The notes beneath the pieces are model-generated. The model ran no database searches. It saw only the letters and a program-made list of their open reading frames with translations, and was not told where the DNA came from. A program made the position numbers and the translations under genes. A DNA stretch of 34,427 bases, taken from contig MGXX01000059.1 of assembly GCA_001801515.1 (NCBI GenBank), positions 110,286 to 144,712 of the forward strand. The letters run 5' to 3'. Source of the stretch: Gammaproteobacteria bacterium RIFCSPHIGHO2_12_FULL_38_11. Lineage in GTDB: Bacteria > Pseudomonadota > Gammaproteobacteria > Coxiellales > Coxiellaceae. This document shows, in pieces, positions 1,417 through 34,393 of the stretch (positions are counted from its first letter, which is position 1; each line of letters opens with the position of its first letter).

Positions 1417-2586
1417 TTATGAAAAATATTTTTTAACGCCGATTTCCCATGGATAAACGGTTATCCCATTTAATTTTTTAGTATAAGGATCGCGGCTTAA
1501 ACAAATCGCTTCGCAATCACCAAAATCCTTCGAAAATGATTTCAGGCTTGATAAATGTCGTTCTTCAATATTGTCTGAGCTTTTTATTTCAATAAATAAT
1601 ATTTTTCCCCCTGGCCTTTCAACAACCAAATCAATTTCAGCATCGTCTTTTGTTTCTAAATAAGTAAAACGATAATTGCGATGTCGATAGCTTGCTAATT
1701 GTATGCATTGATTAATAATAAAATGCTCAAATGCATTGTCAAACGCATTTGTTTTTTCAGGCAATGGAATTTCAATTAGGCGCATTAGTGTTCTAACAAC
1801 GCCCGTGTCAAAAAAGTAAAATTTAGGCTTTTTGCTTAAGCGTTTACGAAATGAATGTTGAAACGGCTGTAAAAAATAACCAATGAGTGTATCTTCTAAA
1901 ATAGAAAAATAATCTTGCACGGTATAATCAGAGACGCCAACCTCTTTTGCGATTTTCGAAAAATTAATTTTCTTTCCGTTTGCTTGTGCTGCCACCTCTA
2001 AAAAATAGCGAAAGGGCTCTAAATCACGCACATATTTTTCTGCCCACACTTCTTCTTTCAAATATAAATTAACATAAGCTTCTAAAAAAAGTTGTTTATC
2101 ATGATCACTGGTAAATTCAAAGAGTTTAGGCAGCATCCCATAATGAATGGCATGCAATAAATTAAATTTATTGCCAGCTTCTAAATAAGTGAGTGGATAA
2201 AGATGATAAAGCAATGCTCTTCCTGCTAATAAATTAGCGCCGCCATGCCTTAATTTTTTTGCGCTTGAGCCTGTTAGAATAAATTTTTTATCGGTAGTTT
2301 CGATGAGATTGTGCACTATATCTAATAGTTTTGGTAGCTTTTGAATTTCATCAATCACAATATGGGTTTGTTTTTCAGGCATTGCGTTAACGATTTCACT
2401 GAGCGTATCTGGGTTGCTTGCAAAGCGGTTTTCTGTTTTTGCCTCCAGTAGATTGATCATTATGGCTTCTTTTAACCAAGGTGTAGATCGTAGCAAGGTT
2501 GTTTTTCCAGTCCCACGCGCCCCAAAAAGAAAAAAACTTTGTTTTTCATTAAGTTGAATAAATCTGGGAAACATACTTGACGCCAT
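1417..2586 (-). CDS. AAA-family ATPase with C-terminal DUF4143 domain
   Basis: A 389-residue protein of the AAA_14/DUF4143 type, a widespread family of unknown biological role. The P-loop GARGTGKT lies at residues 22-29 and Walker B VIDEIQ at about 78-82 (Asp79, Glu80), followed by the LTGSSAKKL sensor-like motif. The C-terminal domain carries a nuclease-like D-x(n)-E-x-K pattern (Asp319, Glu333, Lys335 in AEIDLVV...FIEIK). That pattern resembles PD-(D/E)XK folds, but activity is not demonstrated. The start is either ATG 2586, which lies inside a repeated element, or ATG 2574. No convincing Shine-Dalgarno precedes either. The gene runs convergently toward the IS66-like element and diverges from the ATPase gene at 2738. 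Confidence 0.88.
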   Translation of the reverse strand: MASSMFPRFIQLNEKQSFFLFGARGTGKTTLLRSTPWLKEAIMINLLEAKTENRFASNPDTLSEIVNAMPEKQTHIVIDEIQKLPKLLDIVHNLIETTDKKFILTGSSAKKLRHGGANLLAGRALLYHLYPLTYLEAGNKFNLLHAIHYGMLPKLFEFTSDHDKQLFLEAYVNLYLKEEVWAEKYVRDLEPFRYFLEVAAQANGKKINFSKIAKEVGVSDYTVQDYFSILEDTLIGYFLQPFQHSFRKRLSKKPKFYFFDTGVVRTLMRLIEIPLPEKTNAFDNAFEHFIINQCIQLASYRHRNYRFTYLETKDDAEIDLVVERPGGKILFIEIKSSDNIEERHLSSLKSFSKDFGDCEAICLSRDPYTKKLNGITVYPWEIGVKKYFS

Positions 2587-2646
2587 TTTCTAATTGATAT
2601 TTAGAAATTGTACGCCATTTTCTAAACGCGGTAAAGAAAATGGCGT
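2580..2646 (-). promoter_or_regulatory. Direct repeats at the start of the AAA/DUF4143 gene (candidate operator)
   Basis: The 14-mer ACGCCATTTTCTAA occurs at 2580-2593 and 2612-2625, a period of 32 bp. An inverted copy (AGAAAATGGCGT) lies at 2635-2646. The copy nearest the gene contains the start codon at 2586, so a bound protein would cover translation start and probably the promoter. Confidence 0.55.
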
Positions 2647-2737: not shown

Positions 2738-3823
2738 ATGAAAAAAATATTACCAGATTGGCATTATGCACGACCTGAATTGGCAAAAAAATACTTAGCC
2801 CTTTTTGCATTGGGGCTTGTGTCCGCTCGATGTTTATTTGCGCGTCGTAGAATGGGGAAAACAGAATTTCTAGAAAAAGATTTTATTCCTGCTGCAAAAA
2901 ACGAAGGATATGCCACAGTTTATGTTAATTTGTGGAAATTAGAAGTGGATCCTGCAACAGCAATTATCACGCAATTATATAAAACTATTGCGCCAAAACG
3001 GTTTGAAAAAATTAAAGTTAAAGTGTCTGGTAAACTTCCTGGTATTGCAGAAGGTTCAATTGAAACTGAATTACATTCTCATAAAACTGTATCAGGGTTA
3101 GCCTTGATGCAGGTAATGGATGTTTTTGACAAAACAAAATTGACATTGATGTTTGTGATTGATGAAGCACAGGTGTTAGCGTATGCGGAAAATTCAAGCT
3201 TTGCGCACGCCTTGCGTGCTGAGTTAGATAGCCGCAAAGATCGTATTAAGGTTATTTTTGCAGGGAGTTCAGAAACAACGTTGAGACGCATGTTCGGCAT
3301 TCCTTCTGAGCCATTCTATAATTGGGCGCCAATGGAACCTTTTGTGTTGCTTGGTAATGAATTTGTTGCTGCAATGGTGCAGCGCGTAAATAAAATTTGC
3401 AAATTTCCAATGTCTTTGGACGATGCATTAGCGGCCTTTTCAGCATTAAAATATACTCCTGAGTTTTTTCGTAGATATATTGAGTATTATTTAAATAATC
3501 CGGAGCGTGGTTCAGCTGGCATATTGCAAGAAGCAAAACAAAGTGTATTGCATGATGATCGCTTTAAAAAACAGTGGCAATCTCTTCTTGTTGCAGATCA
3601 ATTTGTATTAAAAATGATTGCAGGTGGTGTTAGAGATTTACACGGAAAATCAGCTGTACAACAATTGGGAAAAGCGTTGGGAGTTGAAGACAGCGCGAAT
3701 AAAAATATGGCACAAAATGCCTTGCGTCGATTAACAGAGAAAAATATTATTACTCGTATAGAACACGGCATTTACCAATTCGAAGACGAAGCATTTGAAG
3801 ATTGGGTAAAACATCAGGATTAA
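2738..3823 (+). CDS. P-loop ATPase of the archaeal-ATPase-like (AAA) type
   Basis: A 361-residue ATPase unlike the DUF4143 type. The P-loop-like motif RRRMGKTEF puts Lys41 and Thr42 in the nucleotide site. Walker B is LMFVIDEAQ (Asp142, Glu143), followed by an FAGSSETTL sensor motif. The C-terminal about 100 residues look like a winged-helix region (NALRRLTEKNIITRIEHGIYQF), as in many ATPases of this class. No membrane segment or signal peptide is visible. Function is unknown; such proteins are often single-gene accessory elements. The ATG at 2738 has no clear Shine-Dalgarno, but an inverted repeat GTATTAAA/TTTAATAC (2708-2715, 2729-2736) sits directly before it. A truncated second copy lies at 6310-6444. 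Confidence 0.8.
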   Translation: MKKILPDWHYARPELAKKYLALFALGLVSARCLFARRRMGKTEFLEKDFIPAAKNEGYATVYVNLWKLEVDPATAIITQLYKTIAPKRFEKIKVKVSGKLPGIAEGSIETELHSHKTVSGLALMQVMDVFDKTKLTLMFVIDEAQVLAYAENSSFAHALRAELDSRKDRIKVIFAGSSETTLRRMFGIPSEPFYNWAPMEPFVLLGNEFVAAMVQRVNKICKFPMSLDDALAAFSALKYTPEFFRRYIEYYLNNPERGSAGILQEAKQSVLHDDRFKKQWQSLLVADQFVLKMIAGGVRDLHGKSAVQQLGKALGVEDSANKNMAQNALRRLTEKNIITRIEHGIYQFEDEAFEDWVKHQD

Positions 3824-16555: not shown

Positions 16556-17905
16556 TTATGGAAAGTTGATATGGAAAGAAAGGTAATTCTTCAGCTCGCT
16601 TGCCAAATAATACGGTAAATTTAATAATCGAAATGATTTTCCAGAAGGCGTTTTTAGCGTATCCCATTGTATTTTTCCTGCATACAACCGTATTGCAATA
16701 TCATGATCTACCATTTCCATAAATTGCATCAATGATTTTAATTTTCCGCTCACGCCTGATTTCACTTCAACGGGAATTAAATATTTTTCAAATGGAATAA
16801 TATAATCTACCTCTGCATTGGATTGTGGTTTTTCTCTTACCCAAAATTTAAGCGGTTGCTGACTGTATGGATTAATTGTTAGAAATTCTTGTCCCACAAC
16901 ACTTTCGATTATTTTCCCCTGATAAATTGTGTTTAAATCGCCAACGTTAAAATAATATTCCTGCAATCCTGCAATATGATTTACTATACCAATATCTAAA
17001 AATTGCAGACGCGGTGATTTTTTATGATTCGTTTCGGCGGGCGGAGTGGTTTGTGTTGTCGGATAAATTAATTTTAACAGCATTGCATTTTCTAAAGTGC
17101 GTAATGCTTCGCTCATTTCACGCGATTTATAATTTGAATTACCAAAACCATGAAAATGAATTCGTTCACCTGATGCTAATGGCGCATGCGCAATGGCGTG
17201 CCGAATAACTTGCGCCATTGTTTTATTGCTGGCATATTTTTCAACGTCATCCATGAAGGAAATCATCAAATTTTCATATACTCTGTTTGCCGCTAGAATA
17301 TCCTTTTCTGCTAAAAATGCTGTAATAGCAGCAGGCATGCCGCCAATCAAAGTATATTGATGAAATAAATTTAATAATTTATTGTGCGCGAAATCGGGGC
17401 AAGGCATTTTTTTTATTATTTCATGTGCTTCACTCTCATTTGCAGCCAATAAATATTCTGAAAATGAAAAGGGATACATAAATAAATATTCAACACGTCC
17501 GACAGGAAAACTGATGTGCTTATCAATTAATGTTTCTAATAAAGAACCGGCAGCAATAACGTGAATGTCATTTCGTACTTCGTAAAAATAACGCAGATAA
17601 TTCGCAGCGCGTGGGCAGCTTTGTATTTCATCGATAAATAATAAAGTGGTTTCTGATTTTTGAATGGGCTTTTTTAAATGAAAATGAATGGCGGAGATTA
17701 AATTATCAATAGAATAATCTTGTTCAAACAAATCGCGATCCGCTTTGATTTCCAAATTGAGTTTTAAAAATTGCGCATAGGATTTCCCGAGATTTTCAAC
17801 AAGGGTTGTTTTACCGATTTGTCTAGCGCCACGCAAAATCAAGGGCATTCGATCTTTCTTTTGTGACCATTCCATAAGCGGTTGATTTATAGTGCGTTTA
17901 TACAT
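16556..17905 (-). CDS. AAA-family ATPase with C-terminal DUF4143 domain
   Basis: A 449-residue AAA_14/DUF4143 protein of unknown role. The P-loop GARQIGKT is at 26-33, Walker B LLFIDEIQSCP has Asp92 and Glu93, and VIAAGSLLE is the following sensor-like motif. The C-terminal domain has AEVDYII...PVEVKSG with Asp367, Glu380 and Lys382, a nuclease-like D-ExK pattern. ATG 17905 is chosen because AGAG lies upstream and the protein then begins MYKRTI, as relatives do. An in-frame ATG at 17917 would add four residues. Direct repeats with 33-bp period lie immediately upstream (17918-17990). It is divergent in sequence from the paralogues at 18011 and 22573 but of the same architecture. Confidence 0.9.
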   Translation of the reverse strand: MYKRTINQPLMEWSQKKDRMPLILRGARQIGKTTLVENLGKSYAQFLKLNLEIKADRDLFEQDYSIDNLISAIHFHLKKPIQKSETTLLFIDEIQSCPRAANYLRYFYEVRNDIHVIAAGSLLETLIDKHISFPVGRVEYLFMYPFSFSEYLLAANESEAHEIIKKMPCPDFAHNKLLNLFHQYTLIGGMPAAITAFLAEKDILAANRVYENLMISFMDDVEKYASNKTMAQVIRHAIAHAPLASGERIHFHGFGNSNYKSREMSEALRTLENAMLLKLIYPTTQTTPPAETNHKKSPRLQFLDIGIVNHIAGLQEYYFNVGDLNTIYQGKIIESVVGQEFLTINPYSQQPLKFWVREKPQSNAEVDYIIPFEKYLIPVEVKSGVSGKLKSLMQFMEMVDHDIAIRLYAGKIQWDTLKTPSGKSFRLLNLPYYLASELKNYLSFHINFP

Positions 17906-17917
17906 ATTTACTCTCAT

Positions 17918-17990
17918 TTGTAACAGAATAAGGGTTGTTTATAACAATTATTGTAACAGAATAAGGGTTGTTTGGAACGAAATTTGTAAC
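17918..17990 (-). promoter_or_regulatory. Three direct repeats with 33-bp period before the AAA/DUF4143 gene
   Basis: Two identical 23-bp copies containing TAACAGAATAAGGGTTGTTT lie at 17918-17940 and 17951-17973. A degenerate third copy begins TTGTAAC at 17984, again 33 bp further. About three helical turns separate successive copies, as expected for a protein binding one DNA face. The nearest copy is 12 bases from the chosen start codon. This probably covers the promoter; the bound protein is unknown. Confidence 0.65.
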
Positions 17991-18010
17991 GGATATAAGT
18001 TTATTGAAAT

Positions 18011-19396
18011 CTACGCGCTAAAACAGCACTTATTATTTTGTTGTAGCAATCGATGTAATTGCTCAGTCAAGTAAAAGGGGATGGATAATAATGCGTAGTG
18101 AATGTGTTCACCATTATGAGATTTTGCATTAACATCCACTAAGCTCGGTAAATCTGAATTAATTCGGACAGCAAGTTTTCTTTTTTTAAGATGCATGAAC
18201 AATTGTAGTGATTTCATGCTGCCAGTTGCACCTGATTTTACTTCAATGGGAATGATGTGATGAGCATGCTGTAATATATAATCAATTTCGGCGTTCGAGC
18301 TTTTTTCTTCTCGATGCCAGTAGAAATTATTGGGTTCAATAAAACTAGGTTCAATACATCGCAATAATTGGCCAACAACTTGTTCTGATAGTGCCCCTTG
18401 ATTTACTAAATTGATGTCACCAATTAATTCCAGTTGATCTAAGCGTAATCCCAAAAATGTAGAAACTAACCCAACATCGATAAATCCAACTTTAAAGCGT
18501 TTATCATCTACTTCAGCTAATAATGGTAAACCATTTGCTGCTGTTGCTTTTATTTTATAACACAGTCGTGCTTTGCATAATAAATTGAGCGCTTGCTTTA
18601 ATGTTGCAATTTTTACATCATTATTTACGCGTGTGAAAACAAATTTCTGTCCTAGTGATTTAGGAATGGCCGTCATGATTTCTTCTAGGTGTTGCGTTGA
18701 AATTTTCCCTGCGTATTTCGCAAAATCATCGCGATAGGTTAATAATAATTCATTGTGTGCACGTGATACTTTTAATAATGAGTTGGTTTCTATCCAGGTT
18801 GATACGGCATAAGGTAAACCACCTACAACTAAGTATTCATAAAATAAAGTCATTAATTTTGTGTGAATGCCAGATGATATTGTTTCCATTAATTGAAAAT
18901 CCTGAAGAAAATTAACCAGTTTTTCCAATCCTTTTGCTAATAAAAATTCTTCAAATGACAATGGTTCAATATGCAAATAGGAGACACGACCCACTGGCAT
19001 GCTGAATTCGTGTTCTGCTAATGTAAAATCTAACAAAGAGCCTGTTACGACAACGGGAAGCGCTGGAAGTAATTCATAAAACCAACGTAATTTGGCGAGT
19101 AATTCTGGGAACGCTTGAATTTCATCTAAAAATAAAATGGATTCATTCAGGTTAATCGTTAAATTCATTTTTAATTCAAGGTCGCGTAAAATTTTCTGTG
19201 GATCATTACTGTTAAAAGATGAGCGAAGCTCGGGATTTTGTTCTAAATTGATTTCAATTAACTGTTTGCCTGTTATTTCAGCAAGCTTACGTACCAGCCA
19301 GGTTTTACCAACTTGTCGTGCACCGCGCACGATCAGTGGCTTACGTCGTGAATCTGTAATCCAGTCTTGGAGGTCTTGTGTCGTATATCGTCTCAT
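18011..19396 (-). CDS. AAA-family ATPase with C-terminal DUF4143 domain
   Basis: A 461-residue AAA_14/DUF4143 protein. The P-loop GARQVGKT is at 25-32, Walker B ILFLDEIQAFP has Asp91 and Glu92, and VVTGSLLDF follows. The C-terminal NAEIDYIL...PIEVKSGATG carries Glu385 and Lys387 of the nuclease-like ExK pattern. It is a close paralogue of the protein at 22573-23955, sharing GARQVGKTWLV and the order and length of all domains, including the final PFYLTEQLHRLL. ATG 19396 has only a weak AAGA before it. It lies downstream of prmA on the same strand but has its own repeat-bearing leader (19419-19476), so it is probably a separate unit. Biological role unknown. Confidence 0.9.
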   Translation of the reverse strand: MRRYTTQDLQDWITDSRRKPLIVRGARQVGKTWLVRKLAEITGKQLIEINLEQNPELRSSFNSNDPQKILRDLELKMNLTINLNESILFLDEIQAFPELLAKLRWFYELLPALPVVVTGSLLDFTLAEHEFSMPVGRVSYLHIEPLSFEEFLLAKGLEKLVNFLQDFQLMETISSGIHTKLMTLFYEYLVVGGLPYAVSTWIETNSLLKVSRAHNELLLTYRDDFAKYAGKISTQHLEEIMTAIPKSLGQKFVFTRVNNDVKIATLKQALNLLCKARLCYKIKATAANGLPLLAEVDDKRFKVGFIDVGLVSTFLGLRLDQLELIGDINLVNQGALSEQVVGQLLRCIEPSFIEPNNFYWHREEKSSNAEIDYILQHAHHIIPIEVKSGATGSMKSLQLFMHLKKRKLAVRINSDLPSLVDVNAKSHNGEHIHYALLSIPFYLTEQLHRLLQQNNKCCFSA

Positions 19397-19418
19397 ATCT
19401 TATTGATTATACGTAAAC

Positions 19419-19476
19419 TGGTAAAAAACACAAGGGTGTTTTTGACTGTTTTGGTAAAAAACACAAGGGTGTTTTT
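19419..19476 (-). promoter_or_regulatory. Two direct repeats with 33-bp period before the AAA/DUF4143 gene
   Basis: Two 25-bp copies containing GGTAAAAAACACAAGGGTG begin at 19419 and 19452, exactly 33 bp apart. They fill most of the gap between the prmA stop (19490) and the ATPase start (19396). On the coding strand the core reads CACCCTTGTGTT, resembling AACCCTTATTCT of the repeats at 17918. Candidate operator. Confidence 0.65.
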
Positions 19477-19489
19477 TATCACTGCAGCC

Positions 19490-20383
19490 TTAATGCATGT
19501 ACTTAAGTTCCATGAGTACCCACCCTTCTTTGCATTGTGTGTCGATACGCGTGAAATGCTTTTGATAGGCAGAAAAAACACGATCGGCATCTATTTCTAA
19601 AACACCGGATAAAATTAATTTCCCATGGGACGATAATAATTCTGTTAATGTGGGTGCTAATTGAATTAAAGGATTTGCCAAAATATTTGCGAGGACAATA
19701 TCGGCTTTTATCCCATTCATTTCACCTGTTTTTTTAACATGTAATTTTTGATTATTAAAATTATTATATTTCGCATTATTTGAAGTTGATTCTAATGCTT
19801 GATTATCATGATCAGTTGCATGCACAATTTCAGCACCCATGGCTAATGCACCTAAGGCTAAAATGCCTGATCCACAGCCATAATCAATCACAGATCCGTG
19901 TGAAATATTATTTGCAATCCATTCTAAACAGAGTTGTGTTGTGGGATGTGTTCCCGTTCCAAAAGCTAAACCAGGTTCAATAAAGACAACTTTTTTATTT
20001 TGATGTGATATTAAAAATTGCTCCTTTTCCCATTGTGGGCAAATCCACAAGCCATTAAATTCCTGTGCGTGAAAATGTTTTTGTGTTTCCGCCACCCAAT
20101 TTTTATCATCTATTTTTTCAATATTAAAATGTGTTTTTTTCAATTCAGAATAATTATTTTTTATTTCAGCAATCATATTTTCAGGCATGCAATTTTCGTC
20201 AAACAAAGCATGTATGGTTGTTTGTTGCCAACAAGGCTGATCTTCGGGTGATAATTGAAATAACGGTTCATTTTTTGCATCCGTCATGGAAACAGCATCA
20301 GCACCCCATTCCATGAAAATATCGGATAATAAATCAATTTTGTCAGGTTCAACAGTGACGGAAATTTGGAAGTGGGTTGGCAT
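19490..20383 (-). CDS. prmA: Ribosomal protein L11 methyltransferase
   Basis: A 297-residue SAM-dependent enzyme that trimethylates ribosomal protein L11 in the cytosol. It has the PrmA N-terminal substrate-recruitment domain (ISVTVEPDKIDLLSDIFMEWGADAVS). After it come FIEPGLAFGTGTHPTTQLCLE, then SAM-binding DYGCGSGILALGALAMGA, and NILANPLIQLAP as the catalytic-type NxxA/P motif. Length is normal. AAGGAAT precedes ATG 20383, and AAGGA overlaps the stop of the ATPase fragment at 20392. In related bacteria prmA usually follows accC; here about 4.5 kb of accessory genes separates them. Confidence 0.96.
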   Translation of the reverse strand: MPTHFQISVTVEPDKIDLLSDIFMEWGADAVSMTDAKNEPLFQLSPEDQPCWQQTTIHALFDENCMPENMIAEIKNNYSELKKTHFNIEKIDDKNWVAETQKHFHAQEFNGLWICPQWEKEQFLISHQNKKVVFIEPGLAFGTGTHPTTQLCLEWIANNISHGSVIDYGCGSGILALGALAMGAEIVHATDHDNQALESTSNNAKYNNFNNQKLHVKKTGEMNGIKADIVLANILANPLIQLAPTLTELLSSHGKLILSGVLEIDADRVFSAYQKHFTRIDTQCKEGWVLMELKYMH

Positions 20384-21096: not shown

Positions 21097-21954
21097 ATGA
21101 CAAATATTTTGCACATCAATAGTAATTATATGAAGACGCTTGGCCCAACAACTGCTCACTTAGTGGTGACGCTTTATGATCGCAATCGCCCTATTTTCCA
21201 CTTTCAAGAAGCTTCTGATATTTTGGGCGGGCGGGCATCGGCCGCCAATGCCCTATCTCAACTTGTTCGAAACGGAGTAGTAACACGACTAAAGTCTGGA
21301 ACATTTAGTCTAGTTCCATTTGAGCTTGGGTTTGAACGAGAATATTTAGGAAACCCTTATGTTGTTGCACGCGAATTAATATCTAGTGGGCACAATGCAA
21401 AAATTCAATATTATCTCTCGCATGGATCTGCTTTTGATCTCCATCAGATGGTAACACAACCACAATTGGACATTTATGTGTGCTCACCAAGAATGATGCG
21501 TCCACAAAATATTTTGGGTTCTCAATTTCACTTCGTTCGCTGTAAAACAAAAGATCTTTTTGGTATCACTGAAATGTGGGTTGATAAAAATGAAAAGGTT
21601 TTTGTGAGTGATTTGGAACGCACATTGTTAGATGGATTAAAGCAACCTGGTTATTGCGGAGGATTTTCAGAAGTTGCAAAAGGTTTCTCTATAAAACATG
21701 ATGCAATTGATCCACAAAAAATAATTGATTACGCAATGAAGCTTTCTGTGGGTGCAGTCAATCGCAGGCTGGGTTATTTAATGGAGCTATATAATATTGG
21801 CTCGCGAATTCACTGGGAATTTTTGCAACAAACATTAACATCGACCTACCAACTGCTTGATCCAGAATTACCATCTGAAGGGCATCACACCGCAAAATGG
21901 CGATTACGATTAAATATCCCGCAAGAAGAATTGCTTGCGATTGGAGGAACATAA
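21097..21954 (+). CDS. AbiEi-type antitoxin/transcriptional regulator (type IV toxin-antitoxin)
   Basis: A 285-residue AbiEi-family antitoxin. In AbiE systems this protein represses its own operon through an N-terminal winged helix and opposes the AbiEii nucleotidyltransferase. The winged helix covers about residues 28-75 (FHFQEASDILGG, ALSQLVRNGVVTRLKSGTFSLVP). The remainder has the AbiEi body with LISSGHNAKIQYYLSHGSAFDLH and KVFVSDLERTLLDGLKQPGYCGG, the latter strongly typical. ATG 21097 has a poor Shine-Dalgarno; ATG 21130 is an alternative. It ends 3 bases before the toxin gene, and its last codons provide GGAGG for that gene. The antitoxin is intact while its toxin is broken. Confidence 0.88.
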   Translation: MTNILHINSNYMKTLGPTTAHLVVTLYDRNRPIFHFQEASDILGGRASAANALSQLVRNGVVTRLKSGTFSLVPFELGFEREYLGNPYVVARELISSGHNAKIQYYLSHGSAFDLHQMVTQPQLDIYVCSPRMMRPQNILGSQFHFVRCKTKDLFGITEMWVDKNEKVFVSDLERTLLDGLKQPGYCGGFSEVAKGFSIKHDAIDPQKIIDYAMKLSVGAVNRRLGYLMELYNIGSRIHWEFLQQTLTSTYQLLDPELPSEGHHTAKWRLRLNIPQEELLAIGGT

Positions 21955-21957
21955 AAA

Positions 21958-22442
21958 ATGATTTTACAAAGCCAAATTTCTAAATTATCTAATCGACTAT
22001 TTAAAGAAGAAGGTGGTAGACGTATACCGGAAAATGTGCTTGAACGTGATTATTGTATTGCGTGGTTTTTAGTTGGATTATCGCGCACCGCACTTCGAGA
22101 TTGCATTGCATTCAAAGGCGGAACAGCGTTAAAACGTTGTCATTTTTCTGATTATCGTTTTTCAGAAGACCTAGATTTCACATTGCTGCAACCATTGAGT
22201 TTTGAGCAGGTAAAGCAACAACTCGAAGCAGTTTACGATGAAATAAAAAAAGCATCGAATATCACATTGGAAAAATATTGGATGATGTCAAATTCGAATT
22301 TCATAAAAAAGAAGCAAGATTAAAAAAGACTTGGGAAACACGACTGGCAGCACAAATGGCTAACCTATTTGAATTTGATCATGTCTACCGCGCAGTAAAA
22401 AGGTCCCTTAGGCAGGCAAAAATCATACCTGAAAAACTCTGA
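21958..22442 (+). pseudogene. AbiEii-type nucleotidyltransferase toxin, internally deleted and frameshifted
   Basis: The intact first part (21958 to about 22270, about 105 codons) contains ERDYCIAW, FKGGTALKRCHF and the catalytic SEDLDFTL of DUF1814/AbiEii nucleotidyltransferases. The frame then runs off to a stop at 22323. In another frame (22278-22442) the sequence reads LDDVKFEFHKKEARLKKTWETRL and AAQMANLFEFDHVYRAVKRSL, which looks like the authentic AbiEii C-terminus and ends at its own stop. Family members are near 290 residues, whereas here about 105 and 55 codons remain. The central region of roughly 130 residues was therefore removed with a frame change near 22270. The toxin should be inactive. 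Confidence 0.82.
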
Positions 22443-22469
22443 GGTCATGGACCCTGCTGAAGTCAACAA

Positions 22470-22517
22470 AACAGATCTCTGTTTTCTGTAGAAGAAACAG
22501 ATAACAGATATCTGTTA
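22470..22517 (+). promoter_or_regulatory. Two palindromic repeats with 33-bp period before the AAA/DUF4143 gene
   Basis: AACAGATCTCTGTT (22470-22483) and AACAGATATCTGTT (22503-22516) are 33 bp apart; the second is a perfect palindrome and the first deviates at one position. A further CTGT...ACAG pair lies between them. They end 56 bases before ATG 22573. Strong candidate operator sites for a dimeric regulator. Confidence 0.7.
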
Positions 22518-22572
22518 TTTTGACATAAACTTTAATATATTCTATTATATATAAAAATCATAAGGTTATATT

Positions 22573-23955
22573 ATGCATAGAAACGCTCTTTTTTACCTTG
22601 AAAATTGGCTAACAAAACACGCCCGCAAACCACTTGTTTTGCGAGGTGCCAGGCAAGTTGGCAAAACTTGGTTGGTTCGACAATTTGCAAAAACAATGAA
22701 CCTGACACTTATTGAGATAAATTTTGAAAAGCGCCCCGACAGAGCAGATCTTTTTAAGAGTAATAATCCAGAACAAATTTTATTGGAATTAAGCAGCGCA
22801 TTGGATCACTCCATTGATCCTAAACGATGCCTATTATTTTTAGACGAAATACAAGCCGCACCTTCTGTTTTCAGTAAATTGCGATGGTTTGCGGAAGACT
22901 GTGCAAAATTACCTGTTATTGCAGCAGGATCATTATTGGAATTTTTATTGCATGACCATACGTTTAGCATGCCTGTCGGTCGTATTACTTATATGCATTT
23001 AGAGCCATTATCATTTGAAGAATTTTTATTGGCGCACGATAAAAAAACATTGCATGATTACCTGCAAAAATTTAATTTTATCAATACAATTCCGCAGTCA
23101 ATTCATGATGATTTATTGTCGTTATTTAGAGAATATGTTGTGGTGGGTGGATTGCCTGCCGTTGTTTCAAGCTGGATTGCCACAAAATCGTTACAAGATA
23201 TTTCGATAATTCAACAAGACTTGCTTGAAACTTACCGTGATGATTTTTCAAAATATCGAGGAAGAATTGCAGTTGATCGACTTTACGAAACAATGTGTTC
23301 TGTGCCAAAATTGTTAGGAGAAAAATTTGTATATAGTCGCGTTAATCCAGATGCGCAAGCGAACAGTGTAAAACAGAGTTTTGAATTGCTGTGTCGCGCG
23401 CATGTATGTCATCGTGTTTCTGCGTGTTCTGCCAATGGTGTGCCACTGACTTCTGAACTTAAAGAAAAATATTTTAAAGGCATTTTTTTAGACGTAGGAT
23501 TGTGTAGCGCGTCATTAAAATTAAATTTTTCAAATATTGCGTCTCCCAATGATTTAATGCTTATTAATCAAGGTGGAATAGCAGAACAAGTAGTTGGGCA
23601 ATTATTAAGAACAATTGATCCATTTTATATGGAACCCGCATTATTTTATTGGGTACGAGATGAAGCGGGATATAACGCTGAAGTTGACTATGTAATACAG
23701 CATGGTAACAAGGTTGTTCCTGTTGAAGTAAAGGCGGGTAGCACAGGTGGGTTGAAGTCATTACATGTATTGATGGAATTAAAAAATTATCAACTGGCTG
23801 CACGAGTGAATGGAAATTTACCTAGTAAAACTGAGGTTTCTGTAAAAAGTCGCACAGGAAATGAAGTGAGATACACCTTGGTATCCATTCCATTTTATCT
23901 GACCGGGCAGATTGAACGATTGCTGAGTGTTAATGGCTACCTAAATTCGGCATAA
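22573..23955 (+). CDS. AAA-family ATPase with C-terminal DUF4143 domain
   Basis: A 460-residue AAA_14/DUF4143 protein, close paralogue of 18011-19396. The P-loop GARQVGKT is at 25-32, Walker B LLFLDEIQAAP has Asp91 and Glu92, and VIAAGSLLEF follows. The C-terminal NAEVDYVI...PVEVKAGSTG includes Glu385 and Lys387 of the nuclease-like pattern. ATG 22573 has AAGGTT 7 bases upstream. It lies inside the accessory island between a broken AbiE module and a HEPN/MNT pair. A short in-frame open stretch after the stop (23956 to about 24054) has no recognisable content. Cellular role unknown; the setting fits a defence or selfish-gene context, but the family is not established as defence. Confidence 0.9.
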   Translation: MHRNALFYLENWLTKHARKPLVLRGARQVGKTWLVRQFAKTMNLTLIEINFEKRPDRADLFKSNNPEQILLELSSALDHSIDPKRCLLFLDEIQAAPSVFSKLRWFAEDCAKLPVIAAGSLLEFLLHDHTFSMPVGRITYMHLEPLSFEEFLLAHDKKTLHDYLQKFNFINTIPQSIHDDLLSLFREYVVVGGLPAVVSSWIATKSLQDISIIQQDLLETYRDDFSKYRGRIAVDRLYETMCSVPKLLGEKFVYSRVNPDAQANSVKQSFELLCRAHVCHRVSACSANGVPLTSELKEKYFKGIFLDVGLCSASLKLNFSNIASPNDLMLINQGGIAEQVVGQLLRTIDPFYMEPALFYWVRDEAGYNAEVDYVIQHGNKVVPVEVKAGSTGGLKSLHVLMELKNYQLAARVNGNLPSKTEVSVKSRTGNEVRYTLVSIPFYLTGQIERLLSVNGYLNSA

Positions 23956-28906: not shown

Positions 28907-30022
28907 CTAAGCAGCATATTTCCGTATGAAATACGCCATTGCTGGATCTAGCACGTGATAATATTTATTTTTGTCCACAAAAATCATATCTAGCTTGTCT
29001 AAATCCTCTAAACATTTTTTAATGCCCGATGGATTTAAATCAACCCTACTAGAAAATTCTCGTCCTTGAGGTTCATGTGTTGTTTGAAAGGCTAGCGCTG
29101 TTATTACTTTTTTCCTGTTTAATGTAAGACGACTTAAATCATCTGTTATCCAAATACTTTGTTTTTCGACATAATCATCCCATGCATTTCTAACATCATA
29201 AATAGTGGGAATATCATTTGAACGCCACAAACGTCGACAAAGTGCGTTAAGATAATAAGGGTGGTTTTCAGTAAGATGAATGATTTCAGAAATAGTGTCA
29301 TCGTCTAAGTGTTTTTTCCATTTATCTTTTGCAAATTTATTTAAAAATGGAAAATAACAAGCGGTGTCAATGCGATCAATCGTCATTAAATCACACAAAT
29401 GATAAAGCGGGCGTGATTTATCTGTAAACATTTCATTTAATAAATGGCGTTTACTACCACAAAAAATGTAGCTGACGTAATTGCTGCGTTCTACGGCGTG
29501 ACGAATTGCTGCTTCTACCGCATGATTTTCCTTTAATTCACCAATCTGTTGAAATTCATCAAAAACAATAACGCAGGATTTTTTAGTTTTTTCTGCAAAT
29601 TGATCGAGTGTTAATAATAATTCAGAAATACTTTTTTCTGTTGTTTGGCGCGTGCTGATTTCTAATTTTTGACCGAGTATATTAAAGATTATTTTTGGGT
29701 TGAGTGTTGCAATAGAATCAATTAATTTATGTGCCAATGGTTTTGTTTTGGGTAATAGCGCATTGATAATTTTGGATACGCCTTCGGTAATGGCTTTGCG
29801 CACTTCTGCTTGTGCGAGCACAAAAAAGAAATCAATACTAACACTAGGGGTATCAATTTCCTTGAGTACCTGCGTAATCAAACTGGTTTTTCCGTATCGT
29901 CTGGGTGCAACTAAAACAATATGCTCATGTTCGTCGATGCTTGTCTTGAGCGCATTTCTTTCTTTGTTTCTGTTACAAAACACGTTGTCTCTTGCAAGGC
30001 CCTGTGGGAAATAACGTCTCAT
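28907..30022 (-). CDS. P-loop ATPase of the archaeal-ATPase-like (AAA) type
   Basis: A 371-residue ATPase. The N-terminal RDNVFCNRNKERNALKTSI is typical of this class. The nucleotide loop APRRYGKTSL has Lys45 and Thr46, Walker B is VIVFDEFQQI (Asp155, Glu156), and IFCGSKRHLL is the sensor-like motif. The C-terminal region has LTENHPYYLNALCRRLW and a winged helix, ending DPAMAYFIRKYAA. It is related to the fragment at 20392-20871 and more distantly to 2738-3823. An inverted repeat lies just upstream (30035-30067). The stop is 8 bases before the dsbD start, and dsbD appears to be translated from a Shine-Dalgarno overlapping that stop. Cellular role unknown. Confidence 0.85.
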   Translation of the reverse strand: MRRYFPQGLARDNVFCNRNKERNALKTSIDEHEHIVLVAPRRYGKTSLITQVLKEIDTPSVSIDFFFVLAQAEVRKAITEGVSKIINALLPKTKPLAHKLIDSIATLNPKIIFNILGQKLEISTRQTTEKSISELLLTLDQFAEKTKKSCVIVFDEFQQIGELKENHAVEAAIRHAVERSNYVSYIFCGSKRHLLNEMFTDKSRPLYHLCDLMTIDRIDTACYFPFLNKFAKDKWKKHLDDDTISEIIHLTENHPYYLNALCRRLWRSNDIPTIYDVRNAWDDYVEKQSIWITDDLSRLTLNRKKVITALAFQTTHEPQGREFSSRVDLNPSGIKKCLEDLDKLDMIFVDKNKYYHVLDPAMAYFIRKYAA

Positions 30023-30034
30023 CTCTGAATCCTC

Positions 30035-30067
30035 ATCACACCATTAGTGTCACACAATTGGTGTGAT
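30035..30067 (-). promoter_or_regulatory. 33-bp palindromic element before the ATPase gene
   Basis: ATCACACCA...TTGGTGTGAT with perfect 8-bp outer arms (30035-30042, 30060-30067) and inner GTGT/CACAC pairs. On the coding strand it can also be read as two adjacent 14-mers, ACACCAATTGTGTG and ACACTAATGGTGTG. It ends 12 bases before the start codon at 30022. Likely operator; the regulator is unknown. Confidence 0.55.
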
Positions 30068-30102
30068 AAGGCAATGTCTTGCGCGGCTACCATATTCAAG
30101 AT

Positions 30103-32944: not shown

Positions 32945-32975
32945 TAACTCGGTGTCGAGTCGATAAATACCGAGT
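32945..32975. promoter_or_regulatory. Inverted repeat in the region upstream of acnA
   Basis: AACTCGGT (32945-32952) and ACCGAGTT (32968-32975) form a perfect 8-bp inverted pair, and TCGAGT and CAAGTCG sit nearby. It lies just beyond the tentative acnA promoter, between acnA and the divergent ATPase gene at 33119. Function inferred only from position. Confidence 0.35.
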
Positions 32976-33071
32976 TGTCAAATACCAAGTCGAAAGATTA
33001 CGAGATGAGCCTCAAAGCTGAAAATTCTCCAAGATTCGGGTTCAGCTCCTAAATTAAGTTTATGTTGACAG

Positions 33072-33114
33072 CATAAGGATATTGCCATATCCTTATGTTT
33101 ATAACATAAGGATG
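33072..33114 (+). promoter_or_regulatory. Direct and inverted repeats with 33-bp period before the AAA/DUF4143 gene
   Basis: CATAAGGAT occurs at 33072-33080 and again at 33105-33113, exactly 33 bp apart. Between them lies an inverted copy ATATCCTTATG (33087-33097), which forms a perfect 11-bp inverted pair with the first. The last copy includes AAGGA, the Shine-Dalgarno of the gene starting at 33119, so binding would block both transcription and translation starts. Confidence 0.65.
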
Positions 33115-33118
33115 AATC

Positions 33119-34393
33119 ATGCTTCGAACACTTTTGCGAACCATTATTTTAGAATGGCAAACACCCAAGGTCGTCAAACCTGATGTGTCTCGCGTCTTGA
33201 CGATTAACTTAGATACGATGCTAAATAATGAGCATATTGTACTGCTTACTGGTGTTCGTCGCTGTGGAAAGTCGACTTTATTGCAGCATATTCGCCAACA
33301 ACATAATGAAAAACATTATTACTTAAACTTTGAAGATGAGCGTCTTATTGATTTTACAGTGGATCATTTCCAGATGATGATGGAAATCTTTGCTGAATTG
33401 TTTGGTGAAGAGAAAACCTTTTACTTTGATGAGATTCAAAATATAAAAGGGTGGGAGCGATTTGTTAGGCGCTTGTATGAACAAGGGTATAAAATTTTTA
33501 TCACTGGTTCAAATGCAAAAATGCTGAGCCAAGAAATGGGAACGCATTTAACGGGACGTTATATTAAAATTGAATTATACCCCTTTTCTTTTTGTGAATT
33601 TCTGGACTTTAAAGGTGTAAAAATTAATGTGCAACATGCGACAACGGCTGTAAAAGCGAAACTGAATAATTTAATAAAACAATACATTACGGTAGGTGGA
33701 TTTCCACAATATGTCAAAGATGAAATGTTAGAGTATTTACAGGCGTTATACGAAAGTATTTTATATCGCGATATTATCTCTCGTTATAAATTACCCAGTG
33801 AAACAGCTATTCGTCAGCTTGCTTTTTATTTTGCAAGTAATGTCGGAAAAGAAATAACATATAATTCACTTAAAAAGCAGTTGAATTTGGGTTGTGCAAA
33901 TACAGCGGCTGAATATTGTCAATATTTAGAAAATTGTTATTTATTTTTTTTGGTAAAGCGTTTTAGTTATTCGCTGAAGCAACAATCGAATTCACCTAAA
34001 AAAGTTTATGCAATTGATTCGGGACTTGCGCATGCAATTGGGTTTCGTTCTAGTCAAGATGCTGGGCGTATGCTTGAAAACATTGTTTTCATTGAATTAA
34101 AACGCAGAAATTTTGAAATTTATTATCATCATGAAAAAAAAGAATGTGATTTTGTTGTGTGCAAGAAAAATAAAATCCAAGCGTTAATACAAGTTTGTTT
34201 TGATTTGGGCGATTTAGAAACCAAAGAGCGAGAAATAAATGGAATAATCGATGCAATGCAAACTTATAAAATTAAACAGGGCACAATTATTACTTTAACT
34301 GAAGCAGATGAAATGATTGTGACTGTGGATGCAAAAAAATATCGCATTGACATTGTTCCAATTTGGTTATGGTTAGTCGCTGTGCAAAAATAA
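33119..34393 (+). CDS. AAA-family ATPase with C-terminal DUF4143 domain
   Basis: A 424-residue AAA_14/DUF4143 protein from a different branch than the others. The P-loop GVRRCGKS is at 45-52, Walker B FYFDEIQNIKGW has Asp104 and Glu105, and FITGSNAKML follows. The middle has LTGRYIKIELYPFSFCEFL and YITVGGFPQYV, typical of the family. In the C-terminal domain the acidic pair is present (KECDFVV), but the usual ExK is replaced by LIQVCFDLGD, so nuclease chemistry is unlikely here. ATG 33119 is supported by AAGGA 6 bases upstream. It diverges from acnA. The remaining 34 bases of the window hold nothing recognisable. Confidence 0.9.
   Translation: MLRTLLRTIILEWQTPKVVKPDVSRVLTINLDTMLNNEHIVLLTGVRRCGKSTLLQHIRQQHNEKHYYLNFEDERLIDFTVDHFQMMMEIFAELFGEEKTFYFDEIQNIKGWERFVRRLYEQGYKIFITGSNAKMLSQEMGTHLTGRYIKIELYPFSFCEFLDFKGVKINVQHATTAVKAKLNNLIKQYITVGGFPQYVKDEMLEYLQALYESILYRDIISRYKLPSETAIRQLAFYFASNVGKEITYNSLKKQLNLGCANTAAEYCQYLENCYLFFLVKRFSYSLKQQSNSPKKVYAIDSGLAHAIGFRSSQDAGRMLENIVFIELKRRNFEIYYHHEKKECDFVVCKKNKIQALIQVCFDLGDLETKEREINGIIDAMQTYKIKQGTIITLTEADEMIVTVDAKKYRIDIVPIWLWLVAVQK

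Follow-up and report, generated by a model that had tools for sequence, protein, structure and literature searches.

Gene-specific leader sites with a 32–33 bp step suggest that AAA_14/DUF4143 proteins each recognise and control their own gene

Results

Five AAA_14/DUF4143 genes with repeats in their leaders

The whole stretch of DNA analysed here (34,427 nt, hereafter the window) holds 36 open reading frames of at least 80 aa, and a Pfam domain scan of 20 of their products found AAA_14 together with DUF4143, above the curated cut-offs, in exactly five genes (genes 1–5; Table 1). All five also match the PADLOC models of PDC-S01, with best E-values ranging from 5.9e-61 (gene 5) to 1e-175 (gene 1). 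In the relevant passages of one survey, PDC-S01 carries a PD-(D/E)XK label and, with 39,480 detections, is placed fourth in abundance among prokaryotic defence systems, most such candidates still awaiting validation (PMC12988326). We regard it as a candidate, unvalidated phage-defence family. Among the matches listed, the closest organism-named homologue of gene 1 comes from a gammaproteobacterial metagenome-assembled genome (MAG; 81% identity).

Table 1. Genes, leader arrays and palindrome in the window (positions on the forward strand)
Feature	Position	Strand	Description	Source
Gene 1	16556..17917	-	AAA_14 + DUF4143 (PDC-S01), 453 aa by the ORF list	Pfam, PADLOC, AF2 model
Gene 1 array	17918..17993	-	Identical 23 bp sites 17918–17940 and 17951–17973, AACAACCCTTATTCTGTTACAA in gene sense; degenerate third site 17984–17993; 33 bp steps	
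Gene 2	18011..19396	-	AAA_14 + DUF4143 (PDC-S01), 461 aa	Pfam, PADLOC
Gene 2 array	19419..19481	-	Identical 25 bp sites 19419–19443 and 19452–19476, 33 bp apart, with dyads, AAAAAACACCCTTGTGTTTTTT	
Gene 3	22573..23955	+	AAA_14 + DUF4143 (PDC-S01), 460 aa	Pfam, PADLOC
Gene 3 array	22462..22524	+	AACAGATCTCTGTT / AACAGATATCTGTT common to 22470 and 22503, 33 bp apart, inside an inverted repeat with 28 bp arms	
Gene 4	33119..34393	+	AAA_14 + DUF4143 (PDC-S01), 424 aa	Pfam, PADLOC
Gene 4 array	33060..33113	+	TTATGTTGACAGCATAAGGAT (33060–33080) and TTATGTTTATAACATAAGGAT (33093–33113), 86% match, 33 bp apart	
Gene 5	1417..2586	-	AAA_14 + DUF4143 (PDC-S01), 389 aa by the ORF list	Pfam, PADLOC
Gene 5 array	2580..2646	-	Two TTAGAAAATGGCGT-like sites, 32 bp apart; 2580–2610 and 2612–2642 match at 74%	
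Gene 6	28907..30022	-	ATPase_2 (PF01637), 371 aa; related AAA ATPase with no DUF4143 match	Pfam
Gene 6 palindrome	30031..30071	-	41 bp, CCTTATCACACCA...TGGTGTGATGAGG; no 33 bp array; 8 nt before the gene 6 ATG; 0/200 shuffles	

A sequence-only reading of the window had described two identical 23 bp copies at 17918 and 17951 and a partial third at 17984 before gene 1, with the same layout before the other four genes of this architecture. The gene 1 copies are all present as described, and repeats at 32–33 bp were found in all five leaders; the 33072/33105 repeat reported for gene 4 falls within the longer 33 bp match of Table 1. Three of the five genes do share a CCTT(A/G)T core, as had been proposed (CCCTTATT in gene 1, CCCTTGTG in gene 2 and ATCCTTATG in gene 4). 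That reading included neither the palindrome before gene 6 (Table 1) nor the dyads in the sites of genes 2–5: the second site of gene 4 lies within a dyad with 11 bp arms (ATCCTTATGTT...AACATAAGGAT) and the distal site of gene 5 inside one with 12 bp arms (ACGCCATTTTCT...AGAAAATGGCGT). The start codon of gene 1 is probably the in-frame ATG at 17905, and that of gene 5 probably the in-frame ATG at 2574, which would put its array upstream of the gene.

When each 170 bp leader was compared with 1000 dinucleotide shuffles, scoring the best self-match at any lag from 15 to 80, the chance of an equal match was 0 for genes 1 and 2, 0.001 for gene 4, 0.008 for gene 5 and 0.023 for gene 3. With the lag fixed at 32/33, the values in the same order were 0, 0, 0, 0 and 0.002.

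Other features of the window are recorded here for completeness. A 15 bp tandem repeat (CGAGTCGATAAATAC / CGAGTTGTCAAATAC) occupies 32956–32985, between aconitase and gene 4. At 21097–22323 an AbiEi-like gene precedes an AbiEii-like ORF of 121 aa whose match is confined to the initial part of its models, so that the toxin partner looks truncated. A 361-aa protein with a C-terminal AbiEi_4 domain (2738–3823) is encoded divergently from gene 5, with which it has a common intergenic region. The segment 8205–16539 carries a 1324-aa ORF with 54 bp/27 bp repeats, which, read from their consensus, would encode glycine-aspartate-rich repeats, followed by OEP, ABC and HlyD genes; we take this to resemble a type I secretion cluster that includes its substrate.

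The 32–33 bp period recurs across the family

Relatives were drawn from eight loci found with gene 2 and the DUF4143 matches listed for the eight genomes of those loci; from DUF4143 matches listed for three groups of genomes, namely the class of a Bacteroidales MAG (60 genomes), the phylum of a Dependentiae MAG (86) and the class of a Christensenella MAG (196); from gene 3 relatives among the matches listed for 395 genomes of the class of the Bacteroidales MAG; and from additional stretches of DNA. (L and G numbers below denote loci and genomes.) To select family leaders we relied on a Walker A/Walker B pattern together with a guessed start codon, a procedure that misses relatives with other letters; it missed three of 12 fetched named records, and these three were tested by hand.

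In the first set, self-repeats reached P ≤ 0.01 in 34 of 94 family leaders, the lag being 32, 33, 64 or 66 bp in 29, whereas 15 of 213 other genes of the same loci were significant, one at 32. In a further set (L118–L187), 52 of 68 leaders were unequalled in 50 shuffles (P = 0), each with a lag of 32, 33, 65 or 66 bp, and a Clostridia-centred set gave nine of 53 at P < 0.02, six at 32/33. Pooled, and with lags free between 15 and 80, family leaders passed P ≤ 0.01 in 109 of 231 cases, the lag being 32/33 in 89 and 64–66 in nine (98 together), against 21 of 396 other genes of the same loci, of which one (L075:2853) was at 32 (98/231 versus 1/396, Fisher 2e-48). The 231 leaders combine best hits per genome, one gene 3 search, chosen paralogue-rich genomes and viral and plasmid relatives; the sample is therefore non-random, and 98/231 is a contrast with the controls and not a prevalence. 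Restricting the comparison to intergenic leaders left a repeat at 32/33 bp or its double in 83 of 192 family members and in none of 182 controls. One control with a lag of 34 (L023) shares its repeat with family gene L008 and seems to be a family member that de-duplication failed to remove from the controls.

The large 32–33 bp excess over shuffles and other-gene controls is what the sequence-only reading had predicted for related genomes. Its broader suggestion of a device common to the ATPase family stands as a general excess but has to be qualified by subfamily: no significant 32/33 array was found in two clades, of 29 and 27 members, and many members of 385–425 aa carry one long palindrome instead (see below).

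Named mobile elements were represented by 10 fetched records of 61 plasmid records with a match and two of 11 phage records. Nine of these 12 have 32/33 bp repeats at P ≤ 0.02 (Criblamydia, Segatella copri HDE06, Segatella hominis, Fusobacterium animalis, Ruminococcus albus 7, Acinetobacter towneri, Acinetobacter junii and two phage scaffolds); no significant repeat was found in the other three (Segatella copri DSM 18205, Vibrio coralliilyticus and Fusobacterium vincentii). Among eight viral loci, four have significant 33 bp arrays (L258, L259, L260 and L265), L261 and the second gene of L262 are significant at 20 and 40 bp, and the remainder are non-significant or have no separate leader. In loci filed as viral or phage (L258–L260, L265, L276 and L277) the family gene travels with its own 33 bp array. 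Other steps, of 22–23 bp and 51–55 bp, occur in family leaders L063, L210, L088, L089, L105 and L211, and correspond roughly to two and five helical turns.

Conserved cores and spacers of fixed length

Copy number and step were taken from a pass in which only steps of 31–35 and 62–69 were allowed; since these lags were preselected, its counts serve for step and copy number only, the headline counts above being those with free lags. It found arrays in 92 of 161 leaders, with two copies in 38, three in 29, four in 15 and five to 10 in 10, the single count of 10 (L142) being doubtful on account of an AT-rich core. The 190 steps comprised 122 at 33 bp, 58 at 32, two at 31, one at 34 and seven doubles, and the last site ended a median of 31.5 bp ahead of the guessed start codon. 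Single steps average 32.7 bp. The earlier proposal that the sites lie on one face of the helix needs a correction here: a mean of 32.7 bp makes three turns only if each turn takes about 10.9 bp.

The clade of gene 1 (CCCTT, 29 genes) has ACCCTTATTTTGTTACAA-like sites, with most information in CCC and TGTTACA. Positions 0–16 carry 0.2–2.2 bits and positions 17–32 only 0.02–0.22, although spacer length is fixed; because the clade sites were located by their likeness to a typed 17-mer, the bits of the site are inflated and those of the spacer are not. Over the 54 arrays with at least three copies, identity between copies was 0.72–0.90 in an 18 bp core, picked as the most alike window between copies, and 0.31–0.72 outside it. 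Array units are mostly non-palindromic (15 of 98 palindromic at P ≤ 0.05).

Could the arrays be no more than tandem duplications on which selection does not act? A few arrays do repeat nearly the whole 32–33 bp unit (L055 and L027). A conserved core joined to an unconserved spacer of fixed length is nevertheless the trace to be expected of a protein ruler and not of neutral duplication; the spacers keep a constant length between species while their sequence is not conserved, and the step stays at 32–33 in distant clades and phyla. We consider neutral duplication scarcely credible. Nor are these CRISPR arrays: the spacers are about 10–16 bp long, most arrays have two to seven copies, and no cas domain was found among the 20 ORF products scanned.

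One leader departs from the regular layout. At G482:C22:19905–20172, two blocks of three sites precede a single gene, 121 bp apart, which is no multiple of 32–33; the gap is either a phase break or holds weaker sites between the blocks.

Long palindromes form a second layout

Inverted repeats at P ≤ 0.01 were found in 42 of the 133 family leaders that have no significant 32/33 array, compared with 16 of 396 controls (Fisher 7e-16), and in 21 of 98 array genes. By protein length, the array-less leaders with an inverted repeat divide into 33 of 76 at 385–425 aa, seven of 43 above that range and two of 12 at 330–385 aa. Many of these array-less repeats are palindromes of 33–49 bp that differ in each gene. 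Their similarity rises with protein identity (rho 0.26, uncorrected for relatedness). The long palindromes, too, are probably private to their gene. The family has two gene-specific site layouts, direct arrays and single long palindromes.

The palindrome before gene 6 in the window (Table 1) has counterparts elsewhere. From 15 of 30 fetched loci examined for ATPase_2 relatives, seven gave a leader; the inverted repeat was significant in five of the seven, which suggests that this related ATPase family may use a similar device. A GCCAAA half-site occurs in four of the seven.

Sites are private to a gene and follow its protein

Whole-genome scans were made with four motifs. For that of the gene 1 clade, at one mismatch or fewer, the scan covered 15 genomes, of which eight had been chosen as holders of such genes and seven had not: 28 of its 30 hits fall in the cognate leader and come from seven of the eight holder genomes. 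The two others are single stray hits in G011 and G020, both without a DUF4143 match, and the motif gave no hit in G321, which had been included as a holder of related genes. Each of three other motifs (two mismatches, six genomes) had all three of its hits in the cognate leader. Backward-read control patterns of the four motifs gave 1, 0, 1 and 0 hits. The earlier proposal of private sites for each gene is thus upheld, with 37 of 39 hits in the cognate leader. No site of the four motifs was found downstream of its cognate gene.

The sites might instead serve replication or transposition of a mobile element, in the manner of Orc/Cdc6 boxes or transposon ends. Orc/Cdc6–DNA structures are among the fold matches of the protein (see below), relatives occur on plasmids and viral contigs, and haloarchaeal orc/cdc6 genes have adjacent boxes, as passages of PMC3528665 describe. 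The four scanned motifs, however, lie on one side of the gene only, and 23 DUF4143 matches in one 1.3 Mb genome are too many for origins, so we consider such a role very unlikely. For Tn7-like transposon ends, which would be found at both ends, the one-sided position of the four motifs, upstream of the gene apart from the two strays, led us to reject the assignment.

We then compared site and protein sequences among 91 arrays (4095 pairs). Motif similarity climbs with protein identity (Mantel rho 0.28, reached in 0 of 500 permutations), its mean being -0.18 below 20% identity (779 pairs), 0.06 at 40–50% (478), 0.17 at 50–60% (139), 0.50 at 60–80% (37) and 0.81 above 80% (four). Similarity in the reverse orientation is flat, and the sites therefore keep one orientation relative to the gene. 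The array motif of gene 1 recurs in relatives from the class of the Bacteroidales MAG; gene 1 and one such protein (L140), 45% identical, have ACCCTTATTCTGTTACA in common almost letter for letter.

A hand-compiled genome map of 16 genomes allowed paralogues within a genome to be set against pairs across genomes. At 45–60% identity, same-genome paralogues were no more alike (eight pairs, 0.005, versus 374 cross-genome pairs, 0.13). Below 25% the two classes were equal (27 and 1761 pairs, both -0.18), at 25–35% same-genome pairs were more alike (26 pairs, -0.08, versus 1500 pairs, -0.17), and at 35–45% slightly less alike (six pairs, -0.08, versus 352 pairs, -0.04). In G370, four paralogues have four different motifs. 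As judged from these sequence comparisons, the site follows protein identity across phyla and not the host genome.

These results bear on whether a regulator of the host reads the sites and controls the genes. A DNA-binding factor of that kind would account for sites at a fixed step, and the somewhat greater likeness of same-genome pairs at 25–35% identity points the same way. Against this, paralogues of one genome differ in their sites, homologues in different phyla share them, and the four scanned motifs are absent elsewhere in the scanned genomes, barring the two strays. Control by a host regulator is highly improbable.

Arrays lie on or beside promoter-like elements

The -7 box of Bacteroidota promoters has the consensus TAnnTTTG. 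Searching the 120 nt nearest the gene in 98 array leaders with this consensus, we counted 59 boxes, where shuffles gave 12.7 ± 3.3. Of these, 46 lie 10–40 nt before the start codon and 37 lie within the array. Such a box may occur in any Bacteroidota promoter, and what counts is its place relative to the array. In ten array leaders with promoter-like strings of the form TTGAC-N-TA...T, the TTGAC hexamer is within 6 bp of the array end in six, including gene 3, where TTGACA begins 3 bp past the repeated stretch, and inside the array in four. Read by eye, gene 2 has a TTGTGT/TATAAT promoter-like pair whose first hexamer falls within the gene-proximal site, and on the Acinetobacter plasmids a -10-like box closely follows the last of the palindromes spaced at 32 bp. 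A sigma-70 scan of 17880–19560 found six matches where 6.9 were expected and is uninformative.

The array sites, then, sit in the promoter of their own gene, promoters being defined here by consensus matches. A position on or beside promoter elements speaks more for a DNA operator than for an RNA element, and more for repression than for other roles. An array end that adjoins TTGAC from upstream, as in six of the ten leaders, would also fit activation.

If the repeats acted instead within the 5' leader transcript, their ending near the start codon (median 31.5 nt) and their single orientation relative to the gene would be readily understood. Promoter-like elements inside or downstream of many arrays mean, however, that much of the array would go untranscribed, and in the window every Rfam family stayed below its gathering score, so that a known RNA family was rejected for the window and an RNA-level element in general appears very improbable.

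The predicted protein

An AF2 model of gene 1, built from an alignment of 67 of 120 listed homologues and three window proteins, has a pLDDT of 90 and a pTM of 0.89. It comprises a nucleotide-binding domain, a helical lid and a winged helix, in that order; where STAND/NLR-like ATPases have C-terminal sensor repeats, only about 145 residues of mixed helix and strand follow, within or after the DUF4143 match. For residues 1–313 the best alignments are to 2qen and 2fna, both archaeal ATPases, and to structures of NLR proteins and CED-4, with Orc/Cdc6–DNA complexes lower, and the predicted fold is that of a STAND/NLR-like ATPase with a winged helix. The structure matches span residues 1–348; the C-terminus is taken as nuclease-type from its motif. 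Reading of the five-gene alignment shows AExD...ExK kept in genes 1, 2, 3 and 5, whereas gene 4 reads ECD...IQVC. Gene 4 lacks ExK yet has a 33 bp array, so the array seems not to need an intact nuclease motif.

Pfam found DUF4143 in three of four winged-helix segments and otherwise weak HTH matches below the cut-off or unrelated ones, and a PDB sequence search with the five-gene alignment matched the ATPase core of distant proteins and elsewhere gave weak matches (E above 0.1). When motif similarity was regressed on four regions of the protein, the coefficient was largest for the AAA part (0.28), ahead of the nuclease (0.20), the winged helix (0.14) and the lid (0.04), with overlapping bootstrap intervals. 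A sliding-window version pointed to residues about 250–330 and parts of the C-terminus. The two results disagree, and neither was therefore used to place the reading domain.

Discussion

As far as sequence comparison and a predicted fold can indicate, the gene-specific leader sites at a 32–33 bp step point to proteins that each recognise and control the gene encoding them. We think that each array is probably a private autoregulatory operator read by the product of the adjoining gene. Binding by the gene's own product is supported indirectly, by sites that appear to follow the protein rather than the host and by the predicted winged helix. According to this proposal the product, a P-loop ATPase with lid, winged helix and PD-(D/E)XK-type C-terminus, would bind a site of about 17–20 bp every 32–33 bp, presumably through the winged helix. 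A step of about three helical turns would align protomers or dimers on one side of the DNA, where they could cooperate. Since the array overlies or abuts the core promoter, binding would most likely repress the gene, and so hold a potentially harmful ATPase-nuclease at a low level until its state changes. Release may be tied to defence, for example through nucleotide-driven oligomerisation during infection.

Alternatively, the product may bind its own array mainly to park and assemble a STAND-like ATPase-nuclease at one address, from which it would be released or fired on infection, transcriptional control being secondary. The NLR/STAND-like fold match, the single genomic address in the genomes scanned and the retention of ExK in four of the five window genes all suit such a platform, as do arrays of five to seven copies (nine of 92, apart from the doubtful 10), which exceed the need of a simple operator. 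Most arrays have two or three copies, however (67 of 92), and a platform does not require a position on or beside promoter elements; we regard it as unlikely, although less so than the other alternatives considered above.

More tentatively than the operator reading itself, we entertain a wider possibility, that tens of thousands of PDC-S01 genes are self-addressed. Each ATPase-nuclease would read one private word, in its own promoter and nowhere else in the genome, by way of a three-turn ruler or a long palindrome; the leader would then be a readable record of specificity, and the array a switch that arms and disarms defence.

We found no description of such leader arrays in the literature searched, outside which lay bioRxiv and most subscription papers. 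PDC-S01 itself has the same domains, and the passages that describe it name no cis elements or regulation; the arrays and palindromes are the feature added here. Iterons are tandem sites at a fixed helical step that are bound by the product of the adjacent gene. They are spaced by about two turns and serve replication control, unlike the present arrays, which have a step of about three turns and lie on the promoter.

A precedent for such an operator is ParA of the F plasmid (type Ia), an ATPase with a winged HTH that, in the parts of PMC8465637 concerned, binds several repeated motifs of its own promoter cooperatively. The likeness lies in the combination of ATPase, winged HTH and repeated own-promoter motifs, although here binding by the product is proposed and the sites are known from sequence. 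ParA is a partition ATPase whose primary site is described there as a pair of hexamers spaced by 28 bp, together with a degenerate hexamer that overlaps. The present genes differ in their STAND/AAA fold match, nuclease-type C-terminus, 32–33 bp step, greater number of copies and site sequence that changes gene by gene.

A second precedent, AbiEi of the type IV toxin–antitoxin systems, is linked to defence and autoregulates through inverted repeats in its promoter, according to passages of PMC7319586. It is, however, an antitoxin with a partner toxin, whereas here one protein has all the domains and many members have tandem arrays. Haloarchaeal origins adjacent to orc/cdc6 resemble the present leaders in placing sites beside the gene of the presumed reader; as portions of PMC3528665 relate, their boxes are diverse within each genome and a few are shared between genomes. 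Those boxes belong to replication origins, whereas the arrays here are proposed operators.

If each protein does read the sites in its own leader, the recognition code of this very large, uncharacterised family could be worked out from genes and leaders taken in pairs, which would amount to a large natural set of protein–DNA pairs with the site written beside the gene. The leader signature offers a handle on what PDC-S01 proteins may touch, predicts a specific ligand for every array-bearing member, and provides a way to find and classify members of the family. It may also help to explain what restrains ATPase-nucleases that are encoded by a single gene. Paralogue-rich genomes should be good material for decoding site specificity, among them G118, a genome of 1.3 Mb with 23 DUF4143 matches.
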